Source: Apoda limacodes | Taxonomy: Eukaryota > Arthropoda > Insecta > Lepidoptera > Limacodidae | Reading direction: 5' to 3' | NCBI GenBank assembly: GCA_946406115.1 | Contig: OX291541.1 | Location: 18,383,908 to 18,447,907, forward strand | DNA: 64,000 bases | Part shown: positions 6,602-39,735 of the stretch, in pieces | How positions within the stretch are numbered: the stretch's first letter is position 1 | Layout: every line of letters starts with the position of its first letter | Made by a program: the position numbers and the translations under genes | Notes under the pieces: model-generated | Told to the model about the DNA's origin: nothing | What the model saw: the letters and a program-made list of their open reading frames with translations, nothing else | The model's database searches: none

Positions 6602-6644
6602 ATAGTCAGTTTAGCGACGCTAGCTGTGACACTCGCTGCCCCAG
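6602..6644 (+). CDS. Gene A exon 2 (43 nt, signal peptide core)
   Basis: The acceptor is TATATTTCAG at 6592-6601. The exon reads in phase 0 as IVSLATLAVTLAAP plus the first base of a Gly codon. The donor is GTTGGT at 6645, weaker than consensus. Length and phases equal those of exon 2 in genes B and C, and this is the main reason for accepting it. Confidence 0.82.
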
Positions 6645-9600
6645 GTTGGTTCATTATTTATTTTAGTTATTTGCCTAATTTACAGCTTTAAAAAGAACAT
6701 CATACATTTAACTCACGGAAATTATTTTTTTCACGCACCTCATCGTGGACAACCTATTATACGATAGGGGTTGCATGCGCGAAAAAAATTTGTACAGGTC
6801 ACTTAAGAATGTAGTTGAGGATTTTGAATAACTTTTACTCTGAGATTTCTATTCAAAAAATCAAAAAATTTACTTCTACTCTAATTTTCAAATCGCTTGT
6901 TATAGAAATCCCTATTATTGGACTCTATAGGTACTTTCAATAAAAATTGGTTTGAACATAATAGGTTCATAAGGTTTCTTGTCCATGACTCCGTCCGCTT
7001 TTTAGTCAGGATAGATGATAAAGTTTCTTTTTTCTTTACAGGTTTATTACAATTTAGATACCGACTTTGACGCGTATACTTTTAGAAATATTGGACTTTT
7101 TATGAACTATAAACTACCTTTAGGTCTTCGAATCCGAGCCAGTTGTTAAAATATCATAAGATAATTATGAACAGTGGTAAAATATCGCTCTTTAAATATT
7201 TTTTTTGTTACAGGATTTGCCGATTTAAGCAGTGAATTTTTGAGTGGACTTAGTTTGGGACAGAAAGAAAAGCCTCAAGGTAAACCCATTGATACCCTTC
7301 AAGCTGACGATAGATTCAAAATACATTTAAGAGAAAGTGAAATAGCTAAAAAATATACCGAAGAAAAAGAAAATAAAGTGAAGGATGTTAATGTAGGTAC
7401 TACTTTTGGAGATCAACGTTCGGGAGTGAAGACCGATGGTAACCTTAACGATAAGGCAACTTTAGTGCCTTCGCTTGGTATGAGTAGTGATAGTAAAACC
7501 AAAATCAGTAGAAACCGAGGGAGCATAAAATATGCCACAAAAACTACGACATCGACTGAAACCAATAATGTAGGAAAAATTGAACTTAGTCTTATCGATA
7601 GAGGAAACGCAAGACATCGCGTTGGGGGAAGTAGTTTAACCGAAACAAAAAATGCCGAATTTGTAAATAAACTTAAACTTAACAGCAAAACCAGTATGTC
7701 AAATAATCGTATTACTAGCAGGTATAGTAATTTAGCTGATGGTTCTGCCCAGGTTGAGTTCGGATTAACAGATACAGCAGGGTTTGGAAACATTATACTT
7801 GATAATAATGCCAAGTCAAATTTGGCTAATCTAGCTTTACCCGGAACTGCAAACAAAAAAGTTAGTGAAACAATTAACAGTAGAATAAACATTGCTGCTA
7901 AGAATTTGGAAAATTTCAAAGATGGCAGCGAAGGGCAGGAAAAACAGGCATATTTTGGTAGGAATTTAGAAAACGAGGCTAATAATGAATATTTTAATAC
8001 CAATAACGAAACTATAAACATTGGGAGCAGTAAATCTAGTGATTTAAAAAATTCTGGTGAAAACCTAAGCCATGTGGTACAAAGTTTTATTGGCAAAACT
8101 GAAGAAATAGCAAATATTGACCTTACCACTGGTATTATTGGCTCAGATATAGTTAAAATTAACGAAAAAGAAAAAGACAAAGCTGATACCACTTTTGTGA
8201 CCCACGAAGGTGATGTTGAAATAGTAAAAAAAAATGATAGCATTAATGTCGATAGCCAACAAGAAAATGCAGATAGCAGTAAGCCGCAAAGTTTTGATGA
8301 GAATCTAAGGATTAGTGCAAAACAAAGTTTTATCGATAAATATAAAGATATAGTAAATGGTGAACTTACTACTGGGGTTATAGACCCAAGTATTTTAAAA
8401 ATTGGTGAAAGAGAAAAAGGCAAAACTGGTACTAATGTTATGTCTCACAGAGGTGATGTTCAGTTTGGAAAAAGATTTGATAGTATTAATGTAGATAGCA
8501 AACCTACAAATACAAACAGCAGTAGAATGCAAAGTTCTGATAAAAATCTAAGCTTTGGTCAAAAAAAAAAAAAAAATGTTGGATTAGGTATAAGTGATGA
8601 CAACAAAGTTAGAAGCAAGTTTGAAAACAAAGTGACCCAAATAGATGTTGATACAGCAACTTCTTCTAAACTGAACCGAGGCATAAAACAGGGTCTTAAG
8701 GCTAGTGATAGAGTTGATAGTAGTATAAGCACTGTAATGAAGAAGTCAGAAGCCCTGAAAGGTTTTGAATCAGATAAGGTTAAATCTCAAAATATTACAG
8801 GTACCATTGTTAACTACGATTTTAGTAAAATTAATGGTGTTAACGCTAGGATTAAAGACAGGGGAAATACCAGATATCGAAATAGAGAAAGTGACACAGC
8901 CAATGAACGTAAATCAAATAAAAAAATATCATCTTATGTTGAATCTACAGAAAACTCAGCAACTTTAAATGTTGGGGAAGAAAATAAGCAGAAAAATCAC
9001 ACTAGTTTTGGTTGGAGTTTCGGAAATAAATCTGTAGAAAAACAAGGAATAAAATCTAGTGATATTGAAGTCTATAGTCAAAGTGAAAATAAGGGCACTG
9101 GTATTTCTAGTACAGGAACAAATTTTGTGAAAAGCGAAAGCCTTGGTGCAACACAAACTACAACTGTTAATGCTAGCTATGGGTTAGGGGGTGAGGTTAG
9201 TATTGGATTTAAAAATAACGACACTCTCAAAGTTGTAGAAGCAGATAACGACAAAGTCTATACCGGTTTTAATTTAAGTTCCAAAAATGTAGATGTTGCT
9301 AATCAAGAAAGTTTTAATATTCGAGAACAAACGGCAGACAAAACTGAAAATCAATTCGGTTGGAGTTTCGAAAAAAGAGCTGGAGTATTTGGAATAAACT
9401 TTGCTAATATTAGTGTGGGAAACAAAAATGGAAATTTTGGAAGTGGTGCATCTAGTACACTGTCAAACGCTAGTAAAAACAGTCTTGGTATAAAAAAAAG
9501 TGAGAAAGTAGAATTAAGTTTAAGTGATGACGTCAAAATAGGAACCAAATTTGATAGTAAAATGAACCAAGTTGTTAATGATACAGTAATTTATTCAAAT

Positions 9601-12600
9601 CTAAACCAAGACGTCAAACAGAGTCTTGATGCTAGCAATGTAGTTGATAGTGATATTAACACTTTACTGAAAGAGTCAGAAAATTCGAAAGTTCTTGATA
9701 CAGATAATGTTAAAACTCAAAATAGTAAAGGTACTATTTTAGAAAACAATCACAATAAAATAAAAGATATTATTAACACCAATAGAGGAAATAACAGATA
9801 TCGCAGTGAAGGAAATTTATATGATACAGTCAACAACGTTTACTCCAAAGACGGAATGGCAATTCAGTTTGAAAGCAAAAAAAAATTAAATGAAAAAAAT
9901 CTTGACATCAGTTCATCTCGTATTAAGGTTGAAGCTACAAATAAATCTGATAACTCAGCTACTTTCAATGTTGTGAAAGAAAAAAACAAGAATACCGCTG
10001 CAAAACTTGAAATTAAATCTGGCAATACTAATCTCTACAACCAATATATAAATAAAGGTATATCGAGTAGTGGTACAAATTATAGTGAAAATGGAAGCCT
10101 TGGTACAAAACAAAGTACATCTATTAATGCTAGCTATGCACTAGCGGGTAAAATTAATTTTGGACTATTAAAAACAGAAAGTTACAAAACTGTTGAACCA
10201 AAGAAAGACGAAGCAAAGACTGCTTTTGATTTAAATTTCGAAAGTCAAGGTATTGCTAATCATGACAGTTTTAATACTGAAGGAAAAACAATACAAAAAA
10301 CTCCAAACGATTATAGTTCGGGTATTCGACATAGAACAGGCGTGAAATTTGGAATCAACTCTGATATGATTAATGTGAACAACAAGAATGAAAATGTCCG
10401 TAGTAGTATATCTAATGAAAGTTTAAGTCTTGGTGTTAAACAGAGCCTAAGTGGTGAGCCTATTAATGAAACAGTTGGTAGTGTAAGCACTTTAGTTAAA
10501 CACTCAGAAACCTTAAAATTTTCAACAAAAGATAAAATTGAAACTCAAAACAACACAGATGTAATAATAACAAATAATTTTGGTAAAATTGAAGATAAAA
10601 CAAACAATAGTTTTAGCGCTGGCTTGGAAAATAGAGAAAACACCGAAAACCGCAGTAGAGGAAGTGACTATGCTGCAGCCAATGACGCTGAATTAAGGAG
10701 CGGAACTGTACCTCAGTTCAGCCAAGACAGAAAATTGAATCATCTTCCTGATATAGGTTCAGCACGTGTTAAGATTGGAATCACAAACAATTTTGGTAAC
10801 TCAGCAACTCTCAATGACGAGGAAAAAAAAGAGGGGAAATTTCACACTAGTTTTGCTGAGAATCTTGAAAACGAAAGTGCCGCAAAACTTAGAATAAAAT
10901 CTGGCGGTATTAATGTCCACAATCAAAATAAAGTTGAAGAAAGTGGATTAACTATTTCAGGCTCAAATTATGGCGAAACCGGTGGCTTTGGTGAAAAGCA
11001 AAGTACAATTGGCTATTTCAGCGGTACACTAGGTGGTGAAATAAGTTTCGGACTTAAAAACACACAGAGTCCAAATTTCGTTGAACTAGAGAAGAACGAA
11101 GCCAGGGGCGCTTTTGATTTAAATGCTAAAAATGTACCGGTTCCCAATCATAAAAGTTTTAGTTCTGGAGGAAAAACAACAGAAAAAACTCAAAACAATT
11201 TTGGTTGGAGTTTCGGAAATGGAGATGGTATAAAATTTGAAATCAACTCTAATAATAATATTAAAAAGAACAATAGAAATGTAGGTAGCGATATATCTAG
11301 GGCACTATTAAACTCTGGTGAAAATGGTGTCAGTTTAAAACAAAGCCTAAGTGATATGCTTAGTGATGGAGCAGATAGTGGTGCTAACAATGAACGAGAA
11401 CACTCAGACGATAGAAAAATAAACAGAGGAAATACTATATATCGCAATCGGGGAGGTAACTCAGTTAGAAAAGAAAGTATATCAAATGCGCAATTTTACA
11501 ATATCAATTCGTCACGTGTTAACGTTGGGGTCGCAGAGAAATCAAATAACTCGGCAAATTTCAATATAAGGGAAGAAAAAATAGAAAAAAATAACACGAG
11601 TATTGATTGGAGTTTTGAAAACAGAAATACAAATCTAGGAATTAAATCTGGTGATGTTGACATCTACATCCAAAATAAACATGATGGTAGAAGAATAGGA
11701 GAAAACCTAAGCCTTGGTGTACAAAAAAGTTTTAATGAAACAGAAAGTAGCAAAATTAAAGCTACTTTGCAGAGTTCAAAACAATTAAATGCTGGTGGAG
11801 AAGAAGAAAAAAATCAAAGTAATTTTGGTTGGAGCCTTAGAAACGAAACAAAGCTAAGGATTAAATCTAGTAATATTGATGCTAACAGTCTTAATAGAAA
11901 TGTGTACAGTAGTGTCTCCCGTCAAGGGCATGGCTCTGATATAAACCTAAGCCTTGGTGTAAGGCAAAGTGTGACTGGTAAAGAAAGCAATACAGTAGAA
12001 AGTGTTTCCAATACTGAATTAAAAAAATCAGGAAGACTGAAACTTATTGAAGAAGAGAAGGATAAATCTAAGAACAGTTTGAATTTGAGTGCTGGAAACG
12101 GTGCTGGTACTAAAGCCCATACTAAATTTGGTAGCATTACAGTCGGAATTAAAAACGAAAACGAAGGTAATGGGTTAGCTGGGGTAGAGCTTAGCTCTGG
12201 AGAAAACCTAAGTCATAGCACAAAACAAGTTGTTATTGCTAAGTCTAATGAAGATGGACCTCAGCAATCAATAGTTCTTAGTGCTGGTGGAGAAAAGGAT
12301 AAAACGTATAGTGGTTTCGACTGGAGTTTTGAAAAAGGGGCAAGCCTTAAACCTGGGATTAATTTAAGGGACGTTGATGCTAACAACAAAAATAAAATCG
12401 TGGACCCGATTGTTTCCAGCCAAGAGCTCAGCTCAGATATAAACCTTGATGTGAAACCAAATCTATCAGGTAGAACTAGCAAAACAGCAGAAAATAATTT
12501 TGAAAGTGGATTTAAAAACACAGAAGATCTCAAAGTTGTTAATGAAGATAAGAACAAAACCAATATAAGTATTAATTTGAATGTTAGAAATGGAGCTAGC

Positions 12601-13407
12601 ACTAAAGGAGATGTTAAATTTGAGGAAGAAAAACTAAATTCGAATAGTAATATAAAAATGACTAGCACTGGGGACAAAATCAACCTAGGGCACACAGCGA
12701 GTCTTGGTTTTGACAAAATATCAGGTCTTGATGATGCTGCTATTTCAGGGAAGAAAACTTTGAGTTTTATTGATTTCGAAAATGGTAAAGTGGCCGATTT
12801 TACAGAAAAACATGATATTGAAAGAAATCCAATTGTTAGTAATGTAGATTTAAGTAAGAACAAAACAGATTTAGTTGTTACTGTAGGCCAATATTATAAT
12901 ACAGTTGGTAGTGGAATCAGCTTTAAGAAAGGAGATAATCTTAAAATTGGTTTGGAGGAGAGTAGTATTACTTTAACTGTTACAGCTAATAGTATGCTCC
13001 GACCAAACACTACTACAAATACGAGTGCAGGCGGTGTACCTAGTACTGAAGTGCCTGAAATTGACCAAGGCACTAGTAATAGCGTTACCTCTAAACAAGG
13101 CAGTGACTGCGATAAAAATGTTGAAAAAGTAATTGTAAATGTTAATTTTGAAAATAATCCTACTGACAGCGATAATGCCAGCCATAGATACAATATTATC
13201 AATATTATATTTAACGTCAACGAAACATTACCTTTCCTTGAAACTAAAGGCAGAGGTGAAAAAATGGAGCCAACTAGTTCGAGTCAAAGTCAATTAAACA
13301 ATTTAATCTTTGGTAATGTTTTAGATTTACGTAATAAGACTACAAGGCTTGACAAGATGAGTCCAGAAGGAAATGATAATAAAAAAATCATGACCATATT
13401 CTTGTAA
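6602..13407 (+). CDS. Gene A: giant secreted Asn/Ser/Lys/Gly-rich repeat protein
   Basis: Coding exons are 6602-6644 and 7214-13407, preceded by a small first exon not securely found. Exon 2 encodes IVSLATLAVTLAAP, a clear signal-peptide core. After an intron of 569 bp (GTTGGT...TTACAG) the frame stays open for 2,063 codons. Together that is 2,078 residues plus the first exon. The mature chain is hydrophilic and repetitive, with many N-x-S/T sequons and only one cysteine that I can see, in a Gly-Ser-Asp-Cys-Asp context about 110 residues from the end. Recurring phrases include FGWSF, SLGVKQS, NxSATFNV and RGNxRYR. A supra-repeat of about 300 residues recurs around 9142, 10099 and 10987. No enzyme or binding domain is recognised. 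The likely role is an extracellular structural or coating protein (sericin-like in character only). The tissue is unknown. Confidence 0.88.
7214..13407 (+). CDS. Gene A exon 3 (all of the mature repeat protein)
   Basis: The acceptor is TTTGTTACAG at 7204-7213. The ATG at 7174 lies in the intron and is not the start. The exon enters in phase 1, so the first complete residues are Gly-Phe-Ala-Asp-Leu. It runs 6,194 nt without interruption to TAA. A homopolymer of 16 A lies within it at 8561-8576 (Lys-rich), yet the same repeat style continues in frame on both sides, so the frame looks right. Confidence 0.93.
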
Positions 13408-13424
13408 ATGTTACAATTTCTAAC

Positions 13425-13430
13425 AATAAA
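13425..13430 (+). other. Polyadenylation signal of gene A
   Basis: AATAAA starts 18 bases after the stop codon of the giant exon, giving a very short 3' UTR. Confidence 0.6.
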
Positions 13431-13741
13431 AATAGGTATATTACAAATGTAGTGTTTTTTGTGGTACCTTACACAAGTTAGAAATCAAACTTTATTTACA
13501 TCAATATTATTTAATGGTTTGGTTGCAGATTTATTTATTTCACATTACTAGGCGTTTAGGGTTTTGTACTCAAAGGGCAACAACAAAACTTTACTAATAA
13601 GCCTACGCTGCGCGCTGTCCGTATGACAGTTTGTCCGTCTTTTCGTCTTTCTGTCTCGGTAATAGTTAAATTTATTATAGAAATACTATCTTACTTTTAA
13701 AGTTATGGCAGAGGAGCACTTGTTAGTGCTTTCAAATATTG

Positions 13742-14110
13742 TTTTTTTTTTATACCACTAAGGTGGCAAAAAAGATTACGGCCCGCCTCATGCTAAGCGG
13801 CCATCGTAGCCTATGGACACTTGCAACACCAAGGGCATTATTTGCACGGTTCAATCACTCCTTTCTTGATTTTGAACTTATTGGGTATAAGAAATCCCTA
13901 TAAATTGGCAGGGAGCTTAATTTATAACTTCAGCTTTCCATGTGAAGAAGTTCTTTCGAAACCGTGTGATATTTTCCTACCAATGGAGAGCTTTGCGATG
14001 GTAGAAAAAAGCCATAGGTATCATTTCAAACAATCTTTCTTAACACAGCTTATTTGGTATACAAGCGGGAGAACACACACCAGGAGGTCAACTGTTCGAT
14101 AACAAAGCAC
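13742..14110 (-). pseudogene. 5'-truncated LINE copy (3' end only)
   Basis: On the minus strand this ends with the conserved LINE tail (GCCACCTTAGTGGTATA, then a poly-A seen here as T9). Upstream it resembles the last coding part of the intact LINE: the antisense reads a Tyr-x-Arg-Leu-like patch and the Ser-Glu-Glu-Leu-Phe-Glu-Met region in decayed form. It is more diverged than the copies at 33.7 and 40.1 kb. Confidence 0.65.
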
Positions 14111-15870
14111 GCTCCCTGGCGCTATTAGGTAGCTAAATTATTTAAATTGGATATGGATGGGCCGCTACCAAATTTGTAGTTGGTAACATGTAACCCAGGT
14201 GCCGCAATACATGCTTATATGCAAGTAAAACCCATTAAAACCGCAGGGACCACAAACAGGTACATATCAACATAGCAAAATTATACCCGATTAAGACACT
14301 GAGGTACTTATAGCAGAATATGTAAAGGGGATTTCTATTAAAAAGTATTATGATATGAAATTCGTTTTTTTAGGGTTCTGTAGCCGTATGGCAATAATGG
14401 AACCACCTAACTCAGTTTTTTTACTGAGATTTTTTTTAAAAGGTAAGTGAGTGATAAAATTTTTTTCGACACCTCATTATGAAGGCTGTTATTTGATATG
14501 TCACCATAAATACATTTAGGGTGTTTTCTTTGAGAAAATCTGAAAAAATCACAACAATAAACCATGTGTTTGGCCTTTGGTAAGGGATTTGACGCGCAGA
14601 TATGTAGGTGTATGTGTGGATAGTTGTTGTATACTTGATGGCTGGGTTCCTGCATGGCTGATTGGTAACAGGTGTACATCTGAGAGTTTCTTGTCACTTC
14701 TTCCCCCAATAGGCTAGTTTGTGATAGTCGTTTAAGTGCCATTTGTTGCCAAGTTGTGTGGGAGTTAAGCCTCTTCCAGAGTTATACGATGCCTGTCTGA
14801 ATGTGTGTTTGCATATATGTATATGTGCGTCTTTGTCTGATGTCTGTGAAAATATCTTTTGGCAGCGCTTGTTAGGTAGTTACAGCGCCTTAATATCAAT
14901 TTATATTTTTATATTTATAATTTATATATATTATATATATATTATGTTTGTGTGTAAATTTATATGTGTATTAATGTCTGCTGTGTAGAGATATATAAAT
15001 ATGCAGGAATATAAATATGTATCTCAGAAGTTAATTGGGACTTTTGATGCTTTACATGGTGTTGCATTGGGGCCCCCATGCAAAAACAATAGGCAATTAA
15101 AATATGGCTTGAATTTAAATTAGGCTATTTACACTGTAAAGCTTGTTTGTTAAGTGTTTAAATATAAAATATGTATTTATTAGTTGATTCACTACAATAT
15201 TATTTTTCGTTTGTGATTTTACAAAGAGTAACTATTGGATGTTAGCAATGAACCAGTATTGTAATTAGTTTGTACATCAAATTGTAATTAATTTTTTTGA
15301 CGATTTAAAAGTGTTCCTTGGAACCCGCTTAAATAAAAAACATTTTAAATTTCAATTTGAATTTTATATAATTCCAAAGCAAATTATTTTAAAAGAAAAC
15401 TGTTAACTAAGTACTTCATATATCCGGAATTCACAGACAACAGAAAACTAACTTATAACGACACTTGGCCAGTTTTTGTGCCTGACGCTTTTAAATTATA
15501 AAATTTGCCCCAGTGCTTTATACGGACTATTGTACCGCTCATTTTTAGCCGTAAAATATCAGACTGTACTTTTTTTCAGTTGTACATTATTGTTTTCCAA
15601 ATTTGTTATAAGATAAACATTGAAGTTATGAAAACACCAGCTAGTGCCGGAAACTCAACGATCGTACCGGCATTTAAGAGGTTATACTTCGCTTTTTGAC
15701 ATTTACTGATCAATCACTGTGAAATTTTTTAGTCATAATCCCAAGCCGAATACCTAAGTCTGTGGTTTTCTAAAATTTTGTAAAATGTTTTTATTATCTA
15801 AAAATTTTTTTTTTGTACCATTTGTATGATAAACTTGAATTCTTTATAGCTTTTAAACTATAAAATTTAA
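14111..15870. other. Intergenic AT-rich stretch
   Basis: No exon can be supported. It holds a scrap of the GGGTTCTGTAGCC repeat (14370-14402), a short copy of the TTTTGGCAGCGC...CAGCGCCTTAA repeat (about 14858-14895, compare 17388-17425), TA-rich runs near 14900-14945, and a retroelement-like tail at 15298-15358. Confidence 0.5.
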
Positions 15871-15872
15871 TA

Positions 15873-16010
15873 GAAAACTGGCACACTGCAGACCTGGATA
15901 TTTATTACTAGAACATGTCTTTAAAATTTCGTGGTATTTGATCAGCAAGTGTCAAAAATAAGTGAGAAATTCTTTTGTATGAAGCACGCTGCGAGCCTCT
16001 CCGAATCGTT
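15873..16010 (+). repeat. Dispersed repeat, copy 2
   Basis: Direct-orientation partner of the repeat at 905-1047, with the same order of landmarks (CTGCAGACCTGGATATTTATT to TGTATGAAGCACGCTGCG). From 16011 to about 17150 I see nothing else recognisable. The reading frames there are short and not protein-like. Confidence 0.55.
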
Positions 16011-26055: not shown

Positions 26056-26059
26056 AATA

Positions 26060-26671: not shown

Positions 26672-29635
26672 ATGGCAAGAAATAAAAGAAAAAGAGTTTA
26701 TTCAGCGGCCGCTCCATCCACATTTAATGTGGACTTTTGCAACATTAGGGGTATTCACGCAAATCTTAACGCAGTCCACCTCCATTTGGAGACTGCGCAG
26801 CCGACCATTCTTTTTCTAACGGAGACGCAGATATCCTGCCCGGCCGATACATCATACCTTCATTATCCCGGTTACAAACTTGAGCACAATTTCGTGAGTC
26901 GTGCCGGTGTATGTATGTTCGTCCGGGAGGATATCTGCTGTCGCCGCCTTCATAGCCTTGAAGACAGGGACCTGTCGATATTGTGGGTGCGCGTAGATTA
27001 CGGCGGCCACACTCGTATCTATGCGTGCCTATACAGGTCTCATAGCGGTGACACGGACGTAACTCGACTCTTCACGCACCTGAGTTTGACGACTGACAAA
27101 GTTCTAGAGCAATATCCCACAGCAGAACTAGTTATTTTGGGAGACTTTAACGCCCACCATCGCGAGTGGCTCAGTTCTCGAACCAATAACTATGCTGGGA
27201 TATCTGCTCACGAATTTGCTCTGACCTATGGATTCTCTCAGCTGGTACTTTCTCCAACGAGAATACCAGATATAGAGGAACATACGAGCTCCTTACTGGA
27301 CCTTCTGCTGACTACTCGTCCGGACGGATACTCCGTCTCAGTGGATGCGCCTCTTGGCTCCTCGGACCACTGTCTCGTTCGGACTCAAGTGTCATGCACA
27401 CAACCTGATCCTTCTGGGCCAACTAATTGGCGTCGTGTGTGGCACTATAAGTCGGCAGACTGGGATGGATTGCGAGAATTTTACGCATCGTACCCGTGGA
27501 GGCAGATCTGCTTTAACTCAGAAGATCCTGACGTCTGCGCAGCCGCAGTCACTGAGACAATCCTTGCTGGTATGGAATGCTATATTCCTAACCCGCGAGT
27601 AGCTGCCGGCGTCAAAAAACGACCGTGGTTTAATAGGTCTTGCAGAAAAGCTAAAATTCTTAAGCAAAATGCATATGAGGCTTGGACCACGGCTCGTTTT
27701 AATAAGGATCCGAATATTTCTGAGTTAAAACGCAAATTAAATGCTGCCTCGAGGTTCAGTAAGAAAGCAACTGCCAGAGCAAAATTCCAATTCATCGGCA
27801 AAATAGGTGGGCGACTTGCGAGCTATCCTTCTGGGAGTCGTGCTTTCTGGTCGCTTGCCAAAGCTGCCGAAGGGAACTTCTGCCAGTCGTCGTTACCACC
27901 ACTGCGAAAGACCGATGGTGACTTGGCCCATAGTGCTAAAGAGAAAGCCGATCTACTGGGCAGTCTCTTTGCCTCGAACTCGAATATGAACGATGAAGGC
28001 GCTGTACCACCTACTATACCGTGGTGCGGTAAGACCATGCCGGAAATCTCCATAACGCAGCGGGAGGTCAGGCGGGCGTTGCTCTCTCTAGACGTTCATA
28101 AGTCGAGTGGGCCAGACGGTATACCAGCAGTGGTGCTTAAGCAGTGTGCTCCTGAGTTATGTCCTGTACTCACGCGCCTCTTCGCGCTTTCCTACCACAC
28201 TAGGCAATTTCCGTCTTCATGGAAGACTGCGAATGTGCACCCGGTGCCCAAAAAGGGCGATAGATCAGATCCATCGAATTACAGGCCTATCGCTATTACC
28301 TCTCTCCTCTCTAAGGTGATGGAGCGTGTGATCAACACACAGCTTTTGAGATACCTAGAAAAACATGACCTGCTCAGCGACCGCCAATATGGCTTTCGCC
28401 ACGGTCGCTCGACTGGTGACCTTCTAGTGTATCTCACACACCGATGGGCACTAGCCATTGAGAGTCAGGGGGAGGCATTGGCATGTAGCCTGGACATAGC
28501 GAAGGCGTTCGATCGGGTCTGGCACCGCGGTCTTCTATCGAAGTTGCCATCTTACGGAGTGCCCGAGGGTTTGTGCAAATGGGTGGCTAGCTTTTTGTCC
28601 GGCAGACGCATACGAGCCGTAGTTGACGGTAGTTGCTCTGATAGCATGGACATTAATGCTGGTGTCCCGCAAGGCTCTGTGCTGTCTCCTACGCTGTTTC
28701 TACTGCATATCAATGACATGTTGGACATGAACAACATACATTGCTATGCAGATGACAGTACTGGAGACGCTTTTTACACGGGTCGTGCAAACATCCCTCG
28801 TTCCGTTGTGGAGGAAAACCGCGGAGAACTTGTGTCTCAAATCGAGACCACACTGTCCCAGGTCTCTGACTGGGGACGGGTAAACTTGGTCCGATTCAAC
28901 CCTACAAAGACACAAGTGTGCGCGTTCACCGCTAAGAAAACTCCATTCACTGTAGTCCCACAATTCCAGAACACTCCCCTCTCCATCTCCAAGAGCATTG
29001 GGATCCTTGGTGTCGACATCTCCAGCGATGTTCAGTTCCGAGATCATTTATCAGATAAGGTGAAGCTGGCGTCCAAAAAACTTGGTGTACTCAACAGAGC
29101 GAAGCAGTGCTTCACGTCGGGGCAAAGGTTGTTACTTTACAAGTCGCAAGTTCGGCCCCATATGGAGTACTGCTGCCATCTCTGGGCAGGTGCACCCGGA
29201 TACCAGCTTGGCCCTTTTGACTCGGTTCAACGACGGGCTGTGAGAATTGTCGACGATTCCAAACTCACTTGCGGTATCGAGCCCTTAAGTCTAAGGAGAG
29301 ACTTTGCCTCACTGTGTGTGTTCTACCGCTTGTACAATGGGTTGTGTTCTGAGGAATTGTTCGAAATGATGCCCACGGCTACTTTCTACCATCGCACCGC
29401 TCGCCATCGGCAGGGAATCCATTCTCACACTTTAGAACCTAAATGGTCGCGTACAGTGCGGTTTCAGAGAAACTTCCTCCCGCGAACGCTTAAGTTGTGG
29501 AATGAGCTCCCTGCCAAGGTATTCTGCAAGGACTACAGTATGGAGTTCTTCAAGAAAGAAGTTATTAGATTTCTGAAGGGTCGGCAACGCGCAAGTGATA
29601 CCCCTGGTGTTGCAAGCGTCCATAGGCTACGGTGA
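26672..29635 (+). CDS. LINE endonuclease/reverse transcriptase polyprotein (987 aa)
   Basis: This is a non-LTR retrotransposon ORF2-type protein. Residues about 18-240 form an exonuclease-endonuclease-phosphatase endonuclease that nicks target DNA: CNIRG, FLTETQI (catalytic Glu), LVILGDFNAHHREW and LGSSDHCLV (catalytic Asp-His). Residues about 470-760 form a reverse transcriptase: KSSGPDGIP, SNYRPIAITS, QYGFRHGRST, SLDIAKAFDRVWH, AGVPQGSVLSPTLF and the catalytic CYADDST. The C-terminal part (about 800-987) is typical of jockey/CR1-like families. No frameshift or stop is present, so the enzyme could be functional. I chose the first ATG. A few nearby residues (MARNKRKR) are basic. The final residues are encoded by the conserved 3' tail. 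Confidence 0.93.
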   Translation: MARNKRKRVYSAAAPSTFNVDFCNIRGIHANLNAVHLHLETAQPTILFLTETQISCPADTSYLHYPGYKLEHNFVSRAGVCMFVREDICCRRLHSLEDRDLSILWVRVDYGGHTRIYACLYRSHSGDTDVTRLFTHLSLTTDKVLEQYPTAELVILGDFNAHHREWLSSRTNNYAGISAHEFALTYGFSQLVLSPTRIPDIEEHTSSLLDLLLTTRPDGYSVSVDAPLGSSDHCLVRTQVSCTQPDPSGPTNWRRVWHYKSADWDGLREFYASYPWRQICFNSEDPDVCAAAVTETILAGMECYIPNPRVAAGVKKRPWFNRSCRKAKILKQNAYEAWTTARFNKDPNISELKRKLNAASRFSKKATARAKFQFIGKIGGRLASYPSGSRAFWSLAKAAEGNFCQSSLPPLRKTDGDLAHSAKEKADLLGSLFASNSNMNDEGAVPPTIPWCGKTMPEISITQREVRRALLSLDVHKSSGPDGIPAVVLKQCAPELCPVLTRLFALSYHTRQFPSSWKTANVHPVPKKGDRSDPSNYRPIAITSLLSKVMERVINTQLLRYLEKHDLLSDRQYGFRHGRSTGDLLVYLTHRWALAIESQGEALACSLDIAKAFDRVWHRGLLSKLPSYGVPEGLCKWVASFLSGRRIRAVVDGSCSDSMDINAGVPQGSVLSPTLFLLHINDMLDMNNIHCYADDSTGDAFYTGRANIPRSVVEENRGELVSQIETTLSQVSDWGRVNLVRFNPTKTQVCAFTAKKTPFTVVPQFQNTPLSISKSIGILGVDISSDVQFRDHLSDKVKLASKKLGVLNRAKQCFTSGQRLLLYKSQVRPHMEYCCHLWAGAPGYQLGPFDSVQRRAVRIVDDSKLTCGIEPLSLRRDFASLCVFYRLYNGLCSEELFEMMPTATFYHRTARHRQGIHSHTLEPKWSRTVRFQRNFLPRTLKLWNELPAKVFCKDYSMEFFKKEVIRFLKGRQRASDTPGVASVHRLR

Positions 29636-29681
29636 CCGCTTACCATCAGGCGGGCCGTAAGCTTGTTTGCCACCTTAGTGG

Positions 29682-29700
<19 letters not shown>

Positions 29701-29716
<16 letters not shown>

Positions 29717-31095: not shown

Positions 31096-31099
31096 CGTA

Positions 31100-31552
31100 C
31101 ATAATCTAAGACGCAAGTCTTCAACCAGTGTGTTTTGAGGGTGATGACCTACGGCACTGAGATGTGGCCGCTAACTATGTGCCTTATACGAAAGCTCAAG
31201 ATCGCTCAGCGGGCGATGGAAAGAGCTATGCTCGGAGTTTCCCTACGTGATTGAATCAGGAATGAGGAAATCCGTAGGAGAACTTAAGTCACCGACATAG
31301 CTCACCGAATTGCAAAGCTGAAGTGGCAATGGGCAGGGCACATAGCTCGAAGAACCGATGGCCGATGGGGAAGAAGGTTCTCGAGTGGCGGCCACGAACC
31401 GGAAAGCGCAGCGTGGGACGGCCTCCCGCTAGATGGACAGATGACCTCGTAAAGGTAGCGGGGAGCCGTTGGTTTCAGGTGGCACAGAGTCGCACGCTGT
31501 GGAGAAAGTTAGGTGAGGCCTATGTCCAGCAGTGGACGTCAATGGGCTGATA
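31100..31552 (+). pseudogene. RTE-type LINE, 3' coding end (decayed)
   Basis: Translation shows MTYGTEMW, then QRAMERAMLGVSLRD, IRNEEIRRRT, a block of IAKLKWQWAGHIARR, then RTGKRSVGRPPARWTDDLVK and WRKLGEAYVQQW. These are hallmarks of the C-terminal end of RTE-clade reverse transcriptases. A stop replaces Arg after LRD, and a frameshift near 31370 moves the last part into another frame. Only the last about 150 codons remain. Confidence 0.85.
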
Positions 31553-31818
31553 TAAATAAATATTGTTTGGACATTACACACAGCGCCGTCTGGCCCCAAA
31601 GTAAGCAGAGCTCGTGTTATGGGTGTCAGACAACGGATACAGATACATATATATTACTTTTTTTTTTGTAAATACATACATATTATACATAAATACACCC
31701 AGACTCAAGACAACCACAAATGTTATTTATCACATAAATGTTTGTCTAATGCGCGAATCGAACCCACACCCTCTGCGCAGCAGTCGGCAACACTTCCAAC
31801 TAGTCTGCGAGGGAGTCA
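31553..31818 (-). mobile_element. tRNA-headed SINE, copy 1
   Basis: On the minus strand it begins with a tRNA-like head (TCCCTCGCAGACTAGTTGG, then a B-box-like GGGTTCGATTCGCGCA), continues with ACAAACATTTATG and AGTCTGGGTGTATTTATG, then CTTTGGGGCCAGACGGCGCT and ends AATATTTATTTA. Related copies lie at 43321-43567, 59440-59705 and 61411-61572. The A and B boxes would serve RNA polymerase III. It is not a functional tRNA. Confidence 0.75.
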
Positions 31819-32108
31819 ATATGATATGATGATGACATAATCTAAATTCTCATACAAGAATTTTGACCATGTTTGCGAAGTAAAAGCCCTGTAGTGTTTA
31901 ATGCTGGGGCAATTTATAATGTTTAACATGTTAAAGATTTTACATCATTTTTGAGAGTAACTGCTGGGCCAACCGTTATATAAAAATATCTCATTAATTC
32001 GAATTTCTGTATAAGTAGTTCAGATTAGTTATTTAAAAAAATAGGAAAATCAAGAATTTCTCTTTATACTTTAATATCTTTTTTAGCAATAGTATAAAAC
32101 GCTGGTCA

Positions 32109-32640
32109 ATGTTATTACCGATTCATCTGAAAAATATAAAATTACCCTTGAAAAGTAATATTTTGAATGAACTGAGCGAAATAAGAAATCAAAATTCTTT
32201 CCATAGCTTGCCAAATGAATCCAGAGATCTTGCAAAAGCCTTTGGGGTTACAAAGGTTTTTAAAAATAAAAGTCGGAAGAAAACGAAGCGGTTTTTTCGA
32301 TGAGATATCAGAAGATGAGAGAATTTCAGACCCAGAATCGTACTTCAAAGTCAATGTGTACTATTTATTGTTGTTTAGATATATTAGTTTCTTAAACTAA
32401 ACAAAGATTTCAGAGCCTCTGTGACCTGAGTAACACATTTGAAATTCTACAACCGGATAAACGTTTATGTTTTTCAAACGAAATAATAAAAAGGATGCCG
32501 AAAAACTGTCTGCTAAATATAATAAAGACATGTCAGTTGATCTGTTTGACCATTATTTGCTTTGAAAACGTGTTAAAAATCTTAAATTCATTTCATCATC
32601 TCAGGGCTAAGTTCGTAACGCCTACAGTCCACTGCTCGGT
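32109..32640 (+). pseudogene. Decayed hAT-superfamily transposase or domesticated relative
   Basis: Patches in different frames read SRKKTKR, then FFDEISEDERISDPESYFKV, NVYYLLLF, later DLSNTFEILQPDK and KDAEKLSAKYNKDMSVDLFD. The pattern 'SYFKVNVYY', then F..L/F.VL.P, then L...Y..DMS.DL is known from the C-terminal half of hAT transposases and hAT-derived ZMYM-type proteins. Frameshifts at about 32295 and after 32390 and stops show it is dead. The N-terminal catalytic part is missing. Confidence 0.6.
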
Positions 32641-32995
32641 CTGTAACAAAGGTGTAATGTTGCCCGTAACCCAAAAGCCTGGGCTAAAGCGCTCCATAGA
32701 TAAATGTATCTCTACTTACGTACGTAACACCAAATCGAAGTCTAGCTGTCCCAGACAACGTTTTTCGACCATTTTTCTATGTTCATAAATTAAGATCACT
32801 TGCTAATGACCATAAGAAACTTGAATCATCTTGCATGTTACACGTAAAAATGCCACCAAGTTACTAAAAGTTGGAAAAAAGGGAGCATAATTTCCGATAC
32901 ATGTCTGAAGCTTAGCTAAAATTTCATGCAACAATGAACAACCCAAGAATTTTAAGGTAATAAATTATTTTTTTAGAATAATTAATACCCTAATT

Positions 32996-33083
32996 ATATC
33001 ATCAATATAAATAAATACTTTCATATCAAAGATGCAGTCAAAAGATTAACCTCGAACCAGGTATTTATTTATATTGATGATAT
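32996..33083. repeat. Perfect 23-bp inverted repeat
   Basis: Arms at 32996-33018 and 33061-33083 are exact reverse complements (left arm begins ATATCATCAATATAAATAAA), with a 42-nt spacer. From here to 33675 nothing else is recognised. Confidence 0.85.
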
Positions 33084-33679
33084 TAATAGCCATGGATATG
33101 GCATGTATAATATATATTCTTCTAAGACTCTAACATTCAGGGAGTCATAAACGAAGAGAGATTATTTCTATGTATGTATATTTATATTGTATTTCTTACT
33201 TCAATGAAGATTTTGTGTGTTTATAAGATTGATGTACTAGGACTTTATAAGTCACTAGGAGTTGTATAATACCCTTATTACTTTGATCTGAGGATGATTA
33301 GTATTTTTGTTTTTCTTAGGAGAAAATTTAAAAAAGGGTTTAATTTTCGCGCACTCATTGGTGTGGGGTGTCATTTAATAGGTCGTCAAAGGTTCCAAAG
33401 TGAGTTTTTCTTTTGGAAGTGACTATTTACTAGCTTTTATCTAGAAAATTCTTTCGAAAATAGGTACATTGATAATTTAGGCTTTTTTCCATTGTAGGTA
33501 CATACGTACGAGTTTATTTATACCGACGAATGCGGTACCTAATATTGTAAAAAAATACGAGTTTACGCAATGCCTAACTATATTTATTAGCAAAAATACC
33601 TTCTCATTTAATTTCGAAGTCAATCGTCATTGATCATAGTTTGCTCATTTGCTGAGTGACATGTTAAGAACAGAGAGAT

Positions 33680-35485
33680 GGAAAGCAGTTTTTTTGAAGA
33701 ACCCCATACTGTAGTCCTTAGAGAAAACCTTGGCAGGGAGCTCATTCCACAACCCAAGTGTTCGCGGGAGGAAGTTTCTCTGAAACCGCACTGTACGCGA
33801 CCATTTTGGTTCCAAAGTGTGAGAATGAATTCCCTGTCGATGGCGAGCAGTGCGATGGTAGAAAGAAGCCGTGGGCATCATTTCGAACAATTCCTCAGAA
33901 CACAATCCATTGTACAAGCGGTAGAACACACACAGGGAGGCAAAGTCTCTCCTCAGACTTAAGGGCTCGATACCGCAAGTGAGTTTGGGACCGTCGACAA
34001 TTCTCACAGCCCGTCGTTGAACCGAGTCAAAAGGGTCAAGCTGGTATCCGGGTGCACCCGCCCAGAGATGTCAGCAGTACTCCATATGGGGCCGGACTTG
34101 CGACTTGTAAAGTAGCAACCTTTGCCCCGACGTGAAGTACTGCTTCGCTCTGTTGAGTACACCAAGTTTTTTGGACGCCAGCTTTACCTTGTCTAGCAAA
34201 TGATCTCGGAACTGAACATCGCTGGAGATGTCAACGCCAAGGATCCCAATGCTCTTGGAGATGGAGAGGGGAGTGTTCTGGAATTGTGGGACTACAGTGA
34301 ATGGGGTTTTCTTAGCGGTGAACGCGCAGACTTGTGTCTTTGAAGGGTTGAATCGGACCAAGTTTTCCCGCCCCCAGTCAGAGACCTTGGACAGACCGAT
34401 CTCGATTTAAGACACAAGTTCTTCACGCTTTTTCTCCACAACGGAACGTGGGATGCTTGCACGGTCCGTGTAATAAGCGTCTCCAGTACTGTCATCTGCA
34501 TAGCAATGTATGTTGTTGATGTCCAACATATCATTGATGTGCAGTAGAAACAGCGTAGGAGACAGCACAGAGCCTTGCGGGACACCAGCATTAATGTCCA
34601 TGCTATCAGAGCAACTACCGTCAACTACGGCTCGTATGCTTCTGCCGGACAAAAAGCTAGCCACCCATTTGCACAAACCCTCGGGCACTCCGTAAGAAGG
34701 CAACTTCGATAGAAGACCCCGGTGCCAGACCCGATCGAACGCCTTCGCTATGTCTAGGCTACATGCCAATGCCTCCCCCTGACTCTCAATGGCTAGTGCC
34801 CATCGGTGTGTGAGATACACTAGAAGGTCACCAGTTTAGCGACCGTGGTGAAAGCCATATTGACGGTCACTGATCAGGTCGTGTTTTTCTAGGTATCTCA
34901 AAAGCTGGGTGTTGATCACACGCTCCATCACCTTGGAGAGGAGAGAGGTTATAGCGATAGGCCTGTAATTCGATGGATCTGATCTATCGCCCTTTTTGGG
35001 CACCGGGTGCACATTTGCAGTCTTCCATGAAGACGGAAATTGCCTAGTGTGGTAGGAAAGCGTGAAGAGGCGCGTGAGTACAGGACATAACTCAGGAGCA
35101 CACTGCTTAAGCACCACTGCTGGTATGCCGTCTGGCCCACTCGACTTATGAACGTCTAGGGAAAGCAACGCCCGCCGGACCTCACGCTGTGTTAAAGAGA
35201 TTTCCGGCATGGTCTTACCGCACCACGGTAAAGTAGGTGGTATAGCGCCTTCGTCGTTCACATTCGAGTTAGAGGCAAAGAGACTGCCCATTAGATCGTC
35301 TTTCTATTTTGCACTGTGGGCCAAGTCACCATCGGTCTTTCGCAGTGGTGGTAATGACGACTGGCAGAAGTTCCCCTCGGCAGCTTTAGCAAGCGACCAG
35401 AAAGCACGACTCCCAGAAGGATAGCTCGCAAGTCGCCCACCTATTTTGCCGATGAATTGGAATTTTGCTCTGGCAGTTGCTTTCT
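33680..35485 (-). pseudogene. Broken LINE copy 2 (RT half)
   Basis: On the minus strand it matches the intact LINE from the codons for ARAKFQFIGKIGG (35470) through the RT domain to MGFFKK (33685). The first part is open (34836-35291), then a stop replaces an Arg/Ser near the GFHHGR motif. The CYADDST core is at about 34510, and a frameshift near 34415 separates RT from the C-terminal region. It lacks both the endonuclease and the 3' tail with poly-A, so its 3' side was lost after insertion. It is highly similar to the intact element. Confidence 0.9.
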
Positions 35486-35770
35486 TACTTACAAAGTATT
35501 TCCATAAGAATAATTATTAGTAGAGGAAAGGCAGCATATTTGAAATACTGTCGGTAATTTGGGTTAGCAGGCGGCCGTAAAATGTTAACAAGAGGTGTCG
35601 ATATGTTTACACAGATAAATCTGACATTCTTCTAAGTTGGCGATCAGAGATTGAAATGTGGAAAAGCGTTTTTGGATTTTTTGCAAAATTTTCTATGTTT
35701 ACGACTGTACTGACGATGTGTACTGTAAAATAAATTATGAAGTTTGGATATTGGACTTCCATTTTGACAA

Positions 35771-35905
35771 AAATATTATAAATGCGAAATTAAAACTGTC
35801 TGTCTGTTACCTCTTCACGCTTAAACTGTTGTGCTGATTAAGATGAAATTTGGCATCTAGATAGTTTGAGTCCCGTAGAAGGACTACTAAAACGTCAAGT
35901 CGGAC
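35771..35905 (+). repeat. Helitron-like fragment
   Basis: AATATTATAAATGCGAAATT, then CTGTCTGTCTGTTACCTCTT, CACGCTTAAACTG and GATGAAATTTGGCAT, then AGATAGTTTGAGTCCCG. This is the 5' part of a repeat common across Lepidoptera, known there as a Helitron-like family. Related pieces lie at 4729, 17250, 44578, 49199 (inverted), 51236 and 54131. Confidence 0.6.
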
Positions 35906-36227
35906 CCGGTTTCTTTTCTATAATTAAAAAGTTTAACATTTAACATTTAATCCACCTCTGCGTTAGATTTGTCATGACAGGCCAAGTGTCATAGGATAGG
36001 TGTAATAGAAAAAGCGGCCATTTTACCAATTAAAATATCTGTTTAAATAATTCTTTCTCGATGTAAAATAAAACTAAAAAGCTACGACCTTTGCGGTATG
36101 ATAAGCTAGATTCGTCACCCCAAACCTGAACCCATATATACATATCTCGGTCTAAAATGAATATCTTCACGATCCTGTTTACCTATATGCAAATAATAGA
36201 CTATGCTGTTGTACATACATACAAGTG

Positions 36228-36234
36228 TATAAAA
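36228..36234 (+). promoter_or_regulatory. TATA box of gene C
   Basis: TATAAAA, 81-87 bp before the ATG at 36315. It predicts a transcription start near 36260 and a short 5' UTR. Confidence 0.6.
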
Positions 36235-36314
36235 TCAAGTTTATTAGCAACTTGACCGTAGTGTTATATCAACTTTCAAAGCACGTGTTTTGTATAACCT
36301 ATTTTGTATAAAAA

Positions 36315-36329
36315 ATGAAAACGGCTATG
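36315..36329 (+). CDS. Gene C exon 1 (MKTAM)
   Basis: ATG AAA ACG GCT ATG followed by a GTAAGA donor at 36330, ending in phase 0. Its length equals that of gene B exon 1, and a TATA box sits at the expected distance. Confidence 0.8.
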
Positions 36330-39300
36330 GTAAGAATAATTCCCGGCTAATTCAAACAAGTGAAATGTTTTTCTAACGCATTGTGTTTTATATTTCAGGA
36401 AGTGAACTTATTGTTGTAAATGATTCTTTCAAATACATTAATAAAATATTTACATCACATTACATAATTAGGGACATTATAATATTTTTGATAGATTGTA
36501 GAATGTCGAATAGTGCAGATGAAAATGATAAATTTGTGTTATCTTCACGTTTTGAGAGCTGGGAAATAATTAGTGACTATTTTTCTTGTAATTATCTGTG
36601 TTTGGGTGTACTATACGTCGGTACCCACTAATAATCGATTGGCCATTTTTTGAGGGAAGTTTGATATAAAATGAAAAGCTTTTATTCAAAGATTCCAAAA
36701 AGTATACAATTTGTATGTAATAAATGTATAATCTAGCAGTAATATGTTTGTCAGAATATTCAAACTCATCAAATTTTGACCAATGAGGTGTCGTTGTTTG
36801 CTTTGTTTGTGTGATCCGATCCGCTACAACGGCTATGTGGCGTCTCATAAAATCTAAGTACCTGGAGGAAGGAGCTTTAACAACGCCATCTATTGTCAAG
36901 TAGTTTTAATGTTGCTGTGTCGGTAAAAATTATAGTATTACTACTCGCCAATAGATGTCAGGAAGAGTCATATGTTTCAGTTTAACATTGCCTAAAAACA
37001 CAGATAAAACGACGTTCACTAAAAAATGAAACCTAGCTAGATCGATTTATCGCCCCCGAAATCGCTTTCTGCTAAAAGTGGCCGTTTATAGCAGATATGC
37101 TATCTACATTTCGCAGTTTTATCCTAGAAACATAACAATACATTCTTAAAATAGCTTATAACTGGTTACATATTTCTCTAGAAGCATATTTTTGAAATTC
37201 ACTTTGCACAAAGAGGAAAATAAAAATATCAATTGGCAGTGCTAGTGGACGTCAGGAACCCTCAAAAAAAAGATTAAACAACTCGAAAGATGTATTGTTT
37301 AGTACTTATAAAAGGTCTCGATAAGAACATTCCTAATATATTTTACAAGTTATGTAATTTTTGATACTCGTATAACTTGAATAGTTGTTTTTTAATTTTA
37401 AAACTTTCTCTTTTTCTATATAAGTTGTTTTATTTAATGCATGTAAATAGTTACGGCGGTAGTATGCAAGAAGCTTATGGATTCCATATATCAGCTTCTT
37501 GGTATTATGTCTTTGCCTAGTTTTTTATTTATCTTTATTAAGCTATACTTTACTATTTCACTAATTGCAACACCGATAATTTGTTATAGATAAATCTCGT
37601 TCTAACCATTTTATGTATAAAAATGTAAAAATAAATGTAAAATGTTATTATTATTATTAACTTTCAGGTGATCGTGTTGTCGTTGGTAGCTGTTGCTGTG
37701 GCTGCACCTGGTGAGTTCAGCTCAAATAGAATACTTGATATTCTGCTCAACCCCCTCCCCTTAAACGCCTTACGTGATTTATAAATCCTTTATAAATAAA
37801 AAGTGCAGAGGCCTATAAAATTTTATGTAATCATACAAACGACACCTGTGGTGATTTCGGCCAGGAATGGAATGAAATAAATATACAAAAGGCAAACAAA
37901 GTACTTATATAGGGCGCGCAAAAGGTATGTTTACATGTAGGGGAGAGTTGGGTAATACCGAGCCCCTAAGGGAATTATCCTATTACTAAGCTCAGGTTAG
38001 GTTAAAATAAAAACGAAATATAATAGAAGGTGGACAATTTATCTGACGACACTAACGGAAATTTAAATTTATCAAAAAACAAACAAAAACAATAATTCGA
38101 GCGAATAATTAAAAATTGGGAAAGCGCAGTATTATCAAACTGGTCTGATAATATCGTGCCCCAGGTAGGTAATTGCGCACTGGGTCTGATAAAACTGCGA
38201 AAAGCATCACACAATGTGTCAGTCAGAGAGTGGAACCCTGGAGACCGAATTGGAAATAGGTACAGACTCCAGATTTCACAAAATGTTTAGTATTAACCTA
38301 AGTGATTGACAATTTGACATTGACAAGACAAGAAAACAATTATTATATTACCTAGTACTTTTACTTAGGTATACATAAATACTGACACATATAAGAATAA
38401 TATACTTACATATCTTTCAGAGATATATAATAATCACAACCATATTATATAGCTGGGCATAATGTCAACGCGCCCTACGCGCGGCATTATCAAACAAGAT
38501 CATTTTATTTTGTAACCTCAAAACATAAACAAACTCAAAGGATTAATTTAAAATTATTCTACACATAAGTTATACATTATTTTTACACTATAAATGAGTA
38601 TAATTTTTTACTGAGTGTGAAATATTCATTGACTTACCTCTTATTGAAATCACCCAAAAAACTATAGCGATCGCGCGGAAAACCTGCAAGCTCGCGGCCT
38701 TGCTCTCTGGATTCTCGGCGGCAGTTGGCGGTGCTCGAGCAGGGTAGGGGGTACATAAAGCTATGATTTTACTAATATTGCAGGCGCGTTTTGTTGACTA
38801 TTTCAAAGAAACCGAGGGGCGCGGAATTTTCAACCGCGCGGTATTACCCAACTCTCCCCTATAAGGTATTTTAGACCAAACAGCAGCCAACTTATGAGAC
38901 AAATTCCAGAATTGAGAGTGAGCCTAACTAAACCATTTTTATCATCTGGATTATCGCTAATGTGAGTCAAAGGACGCGAATTAAGGCACGCTTCCACTTG
39001 CGCTAAGATAGTTGTTATAACTCTTCTACATAATATACAACACCATAAGTATAATAGGTTTGCACGGAACCGTCGGTGCGCGAGCCAGAATCACATTTGG
39101 CCAGTTTTTTTTATCTCAGCACCTTAAACTTTGATGTAGGTAACTATCTTGGTTATCTGGATTTCATTCTAGTTGATCTAATAACTTTTATAAATTATAA
39201 TTATAGAATTCTGCTTGTTCCATGATCTTTGGATATAATTTTTTTTAAATGTTGGTATGTTATAATCTGGTTACTTTATTTTCTTCTTTGTCATATTTAT

Positions 39301-39735
39301 TGACATTGAATCTAACAAAAAGCAAAAAACTAACAGTATCGTTTCCATTTCACAGGTGGTTACGGCGGCAGTGGATACAATAATGGATATGCCAATGGTG
39401 GATACGAAAGTGGATATTACGAAACCGGATATAGTAACGGATACCAGAACGGAGGCAACAATGGTAATGGTGGCTTCCAACAAGGCTATAGACCTAACGG
39501 TGGACAATACGGTGGAAATGGATTTGAGGGTAATTACGACAATGGATTTTACGGCGGCGGTTATCAAGGTGGAAATTACGAAGGAAATTATAATGGTCAT
39601 CATCATCATCACCGCGGACATGACAGGCCAAATTACGACTACAATGAGGGGTACTCTCAATCTGCATCTGGAGCAGGCTTTGGTTTCGGAGGCGTAGGCT
39701 TTGGTGCAAACTTTGACATCAATTTTGGTCGTTAA
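36315..39735 (+). CDS. Gene C: secreted Gly/Tyr/Asn-rich protein (145 aa)
   Basis: Exons are 36315-36329 (MKTAM), 37668-37710 (VIVLSLVAVAVAAP) and 39356-39735; 15 + 43 + 380 = 438 nt, and all junctions keep frame. The signal peptide is excellent. The mature chain starts Gly-Gly-Tyr-Gly-Gly and is built of short G-Y/F-x-N/G units (GYNNGYANGGYESGYYETGY), with a five-His run before RGHDRPNYDY and a Gly/Ala/Phe-rich end (GAGFGFGGVGFGANFDINF). It has no cysteine. Gly-Tyr-rich secreted proteins of this size occur in insect cuticle and in silk or egg coats; which applies here is inference. Intron 2 hosts a 920-bp transposon. The frames called at 39271-39697 are shadows of this exon. Confidence 0.88.
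36780..37240. repeat. Dispersed repeat in intron 1 of gene C
   Basis: It contains TTTAACAACGCCATCTATTG, GCTGTGTCGGTAAAAATTAT, AAAACGACGTTCACTAAAAA, GATCGATTTATCGCCCCC and a hairpin CTGCTAAAAGTGGCCG. The inverted counterpart is at 49960-50225 (GGGGCGATAAATCGATCGAG, then AAAACGTCGTTTTATCCGTG, and GATGGCGTTGTTAAA). Confidence 0.6.
37668..37710 (+). CDS. Gene C exon 2 (43 nt, signal peptide core)
   Basis: The acceptor is TAACTTTCAG and the donor GTGAGT. It reads VIVLSLVAVAVAAP plus one base. Size and phases are the same as in genes A and B. Confidence 0.9.
37940..38859. mobile_element. TIR transposon (920 bp) in intron 2 of gene C
   Basis: Positions 37938-37960 and 38839-38861 are perfect 23-base inverted copies (left begins TAGGGGAGAGTTGGGTAATA). 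Taking the outer TA as target duplication leaves 21-bp termini starting GGGGAGAG. A TA duplication points to the Tc1/mariner group, though this is not certain. There is no transposase ORF. The right part (38690-38850) is GC-richer. Intact termini imply recent activity or mobilisation in trans. Confidence 0.8.
39356..39735 (+). CDS. Gene C exon 3 (mature protein)
   Basis: The acceptor is CCATTTCACAG. It is open in phase 1 for 126 codons to TAA, and has no ATG near its start, so simple ORF finding misses it. Confidence 0.9.

Follow-up and report, generated by a model that had tools for sequence, protein, structure and literature searches.

Three neighbouring genes, here called A, B and C, share one exon plan in a window of 64,000 nucleotides (nt) from the moth Apoda limacodes (contig OX291541.1, positions 18,383,908 to 18,447,907, forward strand). 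We consider it probable, by a modest preference, that they are secreted low-complexity structural genes derived from a single three-exon gene by local duplication and inversion. In each of the three genes, exon 2 is 43 nt long, lies between a phase-0 and a phase-1 intron, and ends with Ala-Pro, and a single last exon follows. Exon 1 consists of exactly five codons in B (MFTLL) and in C (MKTAM), and a TATA-like box lies upstream of the ATG in both. The splice sites of these exons score 6.2–11.4 with a hand-written insect-type matrix, and secretion of the gene products was judged by hydropathy. An earlier reading of the window, referred to as the original prediction, had described this plan. Its exon coordinates for A, B and C all check out (Table 1), as do the length, phases and ending of exon 2, the single last exon and the five-codon exon 1; on the evidence of the DNA, the arrangement is real and was read correctly. 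Exon 2 had also been called identical in the three genes. This holds for length and phase, while the sequences match at only 18 (A-B), 25 (A-C) and 22 (B-C) of 43 bases.

The mini-exons were recovered by a scan that was blind to the claim. Both strands of the whole window were scanned for phase 0-to-1 exons of 22–120 nt with fair splice sites. There were 86 candidates, five of them 43 nt long. Only four of the 86 were hydrophobic and had no more than one residue of polar or charged type, namely exon 2 of A, B and C and a 55-nt mini-exon at 53386, whose acceptor was later used in the model of gene E. In 100 windows generated with a first-order Markov model, the mean number of hydrophobic hits was 2.05, a 43-nt hit appeared in four windows, and an Ala-Pro end in none. 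The agreement of three of the four hydrophobic mini-exons in length, phases and Ala-Pro end, when only four simulated windows had any hit of 43 nt, counts in favour of common descent, as do the five-codon first exons of B and C. Other exit phases gave four hits (phase 0) and no hit (phase 2) at the main thresholds.

We give very little credence to an artefact in which matching exons were selected by eye and at least one of them is unused. The gene models are predictions from sequence alone, and exon 1 of A is uncertain. Moreover, looser thresholds (3/3, hydropathy 1.0) gave ten hits, five of which were 43 nt long; the additional 43-nt hits, at 5266 (plus strand) and 57108 (minus strand), are tied to no gene. 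However, stricter thresholds (5/5 and 6/6) left the same four mini-exons, with those of A, B and C among them, and the longest frames that can be reached from exon 2 of A (2064 codons) and B (461 codons) begin at the named acceptors. Among the candidate donors up to 4 kb upstream, the one closing the named exon 1 has the top score in B (9.0 vs 5.8) and in C (8.9 vs 6.3). The last exon of C is of ordinary length, with 126 codons against a median of 106 codons for the longest reachable phase-1 open reading frame (ORF) at 200 random positions, gene A included. A rival ORF for C at 43665 has 158 codons and a weaker acceptor (5.4 vs 10.5), and an AATAAA lies 83 nt past the gene C stop. The gene C model draws its support from acceptor, composition and AATAAA, and its exon length alone proves little.

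Table 1. Positions and properties of the exons in the five gene models of the window
Feature	Position	Strand	Properties
Gene A, tentative exon 1	245..259	+	MFIVH; donor GTAAGT scoring 9.0; alternative 233-259, MYLFMFIVH
Gene A, exon 2	6602..6644	+	43 nt, phase 0 to 1, IVSLATLAVTLAAP; acceptor 7.3, donor 6.2
Gene A, last exon	7214..13407	+	2064 residues, Asn/Ser/Lys-rich; acceptor 11.1
Gene B, exon 1	21681-21667	-	MFTLL; TATATA 102 nt upstream; donor 9.0
Gene B, exon 2	21121-21079	-	43 nt, phase 0 to 1, LISWTVISVALTAP; acceptor 9.7, donor 9.1
Gene B, last exon	19365-17981	-	Gly/Ser/Phe-rich, ~115-residue repeats; acceptor 8.9
Gene C, exon 1	36315..36329	+	MKTAM; TATAAAA 87 nt upstream; donor 8.9
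Gene C, exon 2	37668..37710	+	43 nt, phase 0 to 1, VIVLSLVAVAVAAP; acceptor 9.7, donor 11.4
Gene C, last exon	39356..39735	+	Gly/Asn/Tyr-rich; acceptor 10.5
Gene D, exon 1	46366..46395	-	MEELRCFLLK, ten codons; TATAAAA 110 nt upstream; phase-0 donor 12.3
Gene D, exon 2	45611..45973	-	Rest of signal peptide and Lys/Asn/Tyr-rich mature part; acceptor 9.7
Gene E, candidate exon 1	51144..51170	+	MRIKTVLLL; donor 7.5, no well-placed TATA box
Gene E, exon 2	53386..53602	+	Ala-rich; hand-chained
Gene E, exon 3	54843..55009	+	Hand-chained
Gene E, exon 4	55149..55327	+	Hand-chained, splice sites unscored
Gene E, exon 5	57037..57097	+	Includes stop codon; hand-chained, acceptor unscored

The mature parts of the three proteins are unrelated in sequence, as had been claimed. 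Pairwise alignment found no similarity between them, with z scores of 1.5 (A-B), 0.1 (A-C) and 1.3 (B-C). Gene A carries degenerate repeats of ~310 residues between residues ~260 and 1790 counted from exon 2 (7951-12540), and its ends are unique. When A was cut into seven segments, the five spanning residues 260-1790 gave z scores of 6.2–27.7 in eight of ten pairs and 2.7 and 3.3 in the other two, and the 11 pairs that include the first or last segment gave −0.8 to 2.5. The ~310-residue unit seems long for a low-complexity secreted protein. In B, the repeats are ~115 residues long, and the best pair (residues 160-275 vs 275-390) has a z score of 24.1. Gene C shows at most weak short-period repetition. 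A model of the A repeat built with AlphaFold from a shallow alignment of five copies had a mean predicted local distance difference test score (pLDDT) of 34.4 and showed no fold; this low confidence is in agreement with disorder of the modeled repeat.

The ratio of nonsynonymous to synonymous substitution (dN/dS) was estimated for hand-chosen segments, comprising four pairs out of ten for A and, for B, two pairs that overlap (dS 0.58–0.74), and the alignments were guided by amino-acid similarity, which lowers dN. The A repeats gave 0.67 (0.47–0.93), 0.77 (0.53–1.06), 0.73 (0.51–1.06) and 0.90 (0.66–1.27), and the bootstrap interval includes 1 in three of these four pairs. The B repeats gave 0.51 (0.33–0.85) and 0.46 (0.25–0.86). 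Amino acids in the A repeats thus change nearly as readily as silent sites without loss of the open frame, and the B repeats are moderately constrained. With constraint this weak, drift suffices to make duplicates unrecognisable without any replacement of exons. A replaced repetitive exon, which the original prediction had invoked next to divergence beyond recognition, is therefore not needed for A and, to a lesser degree, for B.

A replacement would have joined one signal-peptide cassette to unrelated repetitive exons through recombination in the introns, and we regard it as very unlikely. It would explain why unrelated mature exons stand behind the same phase-1 boundary, and the KQY/KHI cassette effectors of the pea aphid offer a proposed precedent, in which one kind of signal-peptide region precedes divergent mature parts (PMC7495047). 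However, the coding sequence of the aphid signal peptide is highly conserved, whereas in A, B and C only the exon frame is kept (PMC7495047). Matches between introns of different genes are also limited to 15–101 bases (the first intron of A left out), and with repeats so weakly constrained no replacement is needed. Membership of a cassette effector family was rejected for A, B and C as well, because the exons agree at only 18–25 of 43 bases and 3–4 of 12 residues.

Common descent of the three genes, the secretion of their products, and their tissue and function are what we infer. By local duplication and inversion, an ancestor with three exons would have given A, B and C. Exon 1 would supply the start of the signal peptide, the 43-nt exon 2 its hydrophobic core and end, and the large last exon the mature protein. 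The endoplasmic reticulum signal would be cut at or near the boundary of exons 2 and 3, and the product would be secreted into a material outside the cell, with silk or cuticle the most likely. The lengths and phases of the exons may have been kept because the splicing frame and the length of the signal peptide are constrained, and the mature exons may have drifted apart because selection acts mainly on composition and an open frame and because A and B grow through internal repeat duplication. A matrix locus of silk or cuticle type that arose by local duplication is the most likely description, and its silk or cuticle identity is plausible.

The common plan is only partly evidence of descent, and several observations weigh against a single origin. 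The strands of the five gene models (6602-57097) alternate (A+, B−, C+, D−, E+), so that A, B and C form no simple head-to-tail tandem. The claim of a tandem family thus stands in that the genes are neighbours and can fairly be read as a family, and falls in that there is no head-to-tail array. Two pairs among the five models, A/B and C/D, are convergent. Exon 1 of A is not firmly found. The best-scoring candidate, at 245-259, implies an intron of 6.3 kb; it has a TATAAA 117 nt upstream, and a short ORF noted by eye separates this TATA box from the ATG. The phase-0 entry of exon 2 of A holds for any choice of first exon. Common matches in the flanks and introns of A, B and C span only 15–101 bases, several occur at more than one site, and they are tentatively read as dispersed repeats. 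A protein search returned no relatives for B, C and residues 540-1040 of the A last exon in a collection whose insect coverage is unchecked. Genes D and E depart from the exon plan: all five models carry a phase-0 intron within the hydrophobic core or immediately ahead of it, and the phase-1 intron that makes a 43-nt exon is confined to A, B and C.

The sequences of exon 2 weigh in the same direction. When codons were shuffled 5000 times with Ala-Pro kept, the observed match was reached with frequencies of 0.0036 (A-C), 0.0896 (B-C) and 0.3248 (A-B); with Ala-Pro not kept, the values were 0 of 5000, 0.0088 and 0.0662, respectively. A and C agree at 4 of 12 residues. The signal peptide of C matches those of six Manduca Vmps at 6, 8, 8, 8, 6 and 5 of 12 residues, under an assumed alignment at the cleavage site; PMC3843731 tabulates nine Vmps, of which Vmp4, 7 and 9 were left out, and the six used are not independent, being one family with three members from one gene model. 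Sequence homology of exon 2 was therefore not used as evidence of kinship, as the Vmp signal peptides match C better than A does. The exon 2 sequences appear hardly more alike than unrelated signal peptides and carry no apparent family signal. The proposed secreted family with a fixed cassette consequently retains its common exon length, phases and Ala-Pro end, but the cassette sequence is not fixed.

Convergence is a serious rival to common descent, although we assign it a minor share of the probability; for both, the weights are judgements and were not computed. Three unrelated secreted genes would have acquired introns independently at favoured places, in phase 0 early and in phase 1 at the end of the signal peptide, and a typical signal-peptide length would then make exon 2 about 43 nt long. 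Among animal proteins that carry a signal peptide, phase-1 introns are concentrated around residue 20, and arthropods have a phase-0 peak at position 5, seen in 20 genes that remained after homology reduction and of which no two exceed 32.1% identity (PMC1626468). The 88 Drosophila genes in this peak include 38 annotated as cuticle genes and 46 of no known function (PMC1626468). Among mosquito CPR genes with introns, 86% have an intron in the signal peptide; the first coding exons measure 3–36 nt, with a median and mode of 12 nt, and 93% of the genes have a TATA box and an initiator (INR) (PMC2259329). These favoured positions make the coincidence in A, B and C less improbable than the original prediction, which held chance agreement to be unlikely, had supposed. 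The lack of a family signal in the signal-peptide sequence fits convergence, and so does the early phase-0 intron being all that D and E have in common with A, B and C. However, the known phase-0 peak follows four codons rather than five, and in Drosophila 80 of the 88 peak introns are the only intron of their gene, unlike those of A, B and C (PMC1626468). That three neighbours among five gene models agree exactly in length, in both phases and in the ending still requires some coincidence.

Common descent, our preferred reading, can be extended to a bolder one, which we consider unlikely. One ancestral secretory front end would be the source of three or more matrix proteins at this locus that are unrelated in their chemistry and whose homology is marked by the exon frame alone; replacement of mature exons would then be possible, and D and E may be restructured relatives. 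If true, this would make the locus the insect equivalent of the SCPP cluster of vertebrates.

The silk genes of other insects offer the closest parallels in plan. In Bombyx mori, the first two exons of the sericin genes Ser1 and Ser2 are similar in size and encode the signal peptide (PMC5124675), as is also described for exons 1 and 2 of Ser1, while Ser3 has three exons (PMC8329953). The signal peptide likewise lies on the first two exons in B and C, and would do so in A given a first exon such as the candidate at 245-259. Unlike the three-exon plan found here, Ser1 has 9 exons and Ser2 has 13, and the likeness concerns which exons encode the signal peptide. Ser2 and Ser3 of Yponomeuta cagnagella are neighbours with three exons and two introns, for which a common progenitor was inferred (PMC9684489). 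A, B and C are also neighbours with three exons; however, the Yponomeuta genes have the highest serine content among the sericins of that moth, and the mature parts of A, B and C differ in composition (PMC9684489). Sericin clusters have been described in Galleria and Ephestia (PMC9745057). The caz (cadhesin) genes of caddisflies are clustered and heterogeneous and mostly consist of a short signal-peptide exon and a long, often repetitive exon (PMC11092239). Unlike A, B and C, they mostly have two exons and are mostly rich in Ser and Thr. The fibroin heavy chain was rejected as an identity for A, B and C, because its gene has two exons, the first of which codes for part of the signal peptide (PMC9684489), against the three-exon plan.

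The sericin-like pattern is thus already known in print, and A, B and C appear to resemble it and the caz genes in plan. We do not file them as sericins because their serine content is low or borderline and the Ser1-type motif is missing. Named sericins in pyralid tables contain 14.6 to 53.5% serine (PMC9745057); C (4.8%) is not serine-rich, A (12.1%) is below this range, and B (14.5%) is at its lower edge. The cysteine motif near the C-terminus of Ser1-type proteins is CVCY (PMC9684489), and no such CXCX motif occurs in A, which has one cysteine in its mature part, or in B and C, which have none. A sericin exon of 43 nt in phase 0 to 1 was not found in the accessible parts of the literature searched, with the original gene-structure papers and supplementary figures outside this scope, and exon plans were not found in the accessible parts of PMC12661448 and PMC6405961.

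Cuticle and egg-coat identities were also considered. Arthropod CPR genes are similar in having a short first exon within the signal peptide, a TATA box and tandem arrays (PMC2259329). No Pfam match to the R&R chitin-binding domain of CPR proteins was found in the A, B and C last exons at E ≤ 1. Silkworm glycine-rich proteins (GRPs) are rich in Gly (PMC4171585), as are C (32.5%) and B (24.3%), and A (8.4%) is not; with regard to the Gly(n)-X repeat of GRPs, the repeat motif was judged by eye. Pfam and NCBIfam showed nothing above the cut-offs for A, B, C and D, and Pfam showed nothing for E. No match was found in the PDB for the A last exon, or in Rfam at the gathering threshold. Gene B had no match in genome_contigs, which covers bacteria and archaea and is hence little informative. 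Chorion proteins are rich in cysteine. With 1, 0 and 0 cysteines in the mature parts of A, B and C, a chorion identity was rejected, and the egg-coat locus named as a possibility by the original prediction is not supported.

Because of the rapid evolution of silk proteins, similarity searches across species often fail (PMC9745057, PMC9684489), and searches by gene structure have been used for the bicycle genes of aphids (PMC9168663). If the exon length and phase of the cassette mark descent, searches of this kind could bring back matrix-protein families that have been lost from view. A convergent origin of the agreement would caution against the use of signal-peptide exons as evidence of kinship.

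Genes D and E were modeled by hand without a gene finder, and the list of five genes may be incomplete. Gene D (45611-46395, minus strand) is a two-exon model of a secreted gene with a product of 130 residues and has no 43-nt exon. Gene E (51144-57097, plus strand) would encode an Ala-rich product of ~216 residues, with an Ala content of 21.7% in the 207 residues encoded from exon 2 onwards. It is a weaker model than D, and only one of its five exons was recovered when the window was scanned for internal exons flanked by two good splice sites. Exon 1 of E was picked because it completes the signal peptide; one upstream donor scores higher (8.2) and follows non-hydrophobic peptides.

Several repetitive elements lie in the window. 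A long interspersed nuclear element (LINE) with endonuclease and reverse-transcriptase domains (26675-29632, plus strand) and a broken LINE-related copy with three ORFs, recognised by eye (33645-35303, minus strand), are located between B and C; the LINE protein had no match in viral_contigs. A Tc3-like transposase fragment is present at 47118-47480. A tandem repeat at 62468-62822 can be described as 3.5 copies of a 100-bp unit with 98% matches or as 7.1 copies of a 50-bp unit with 86% matches.

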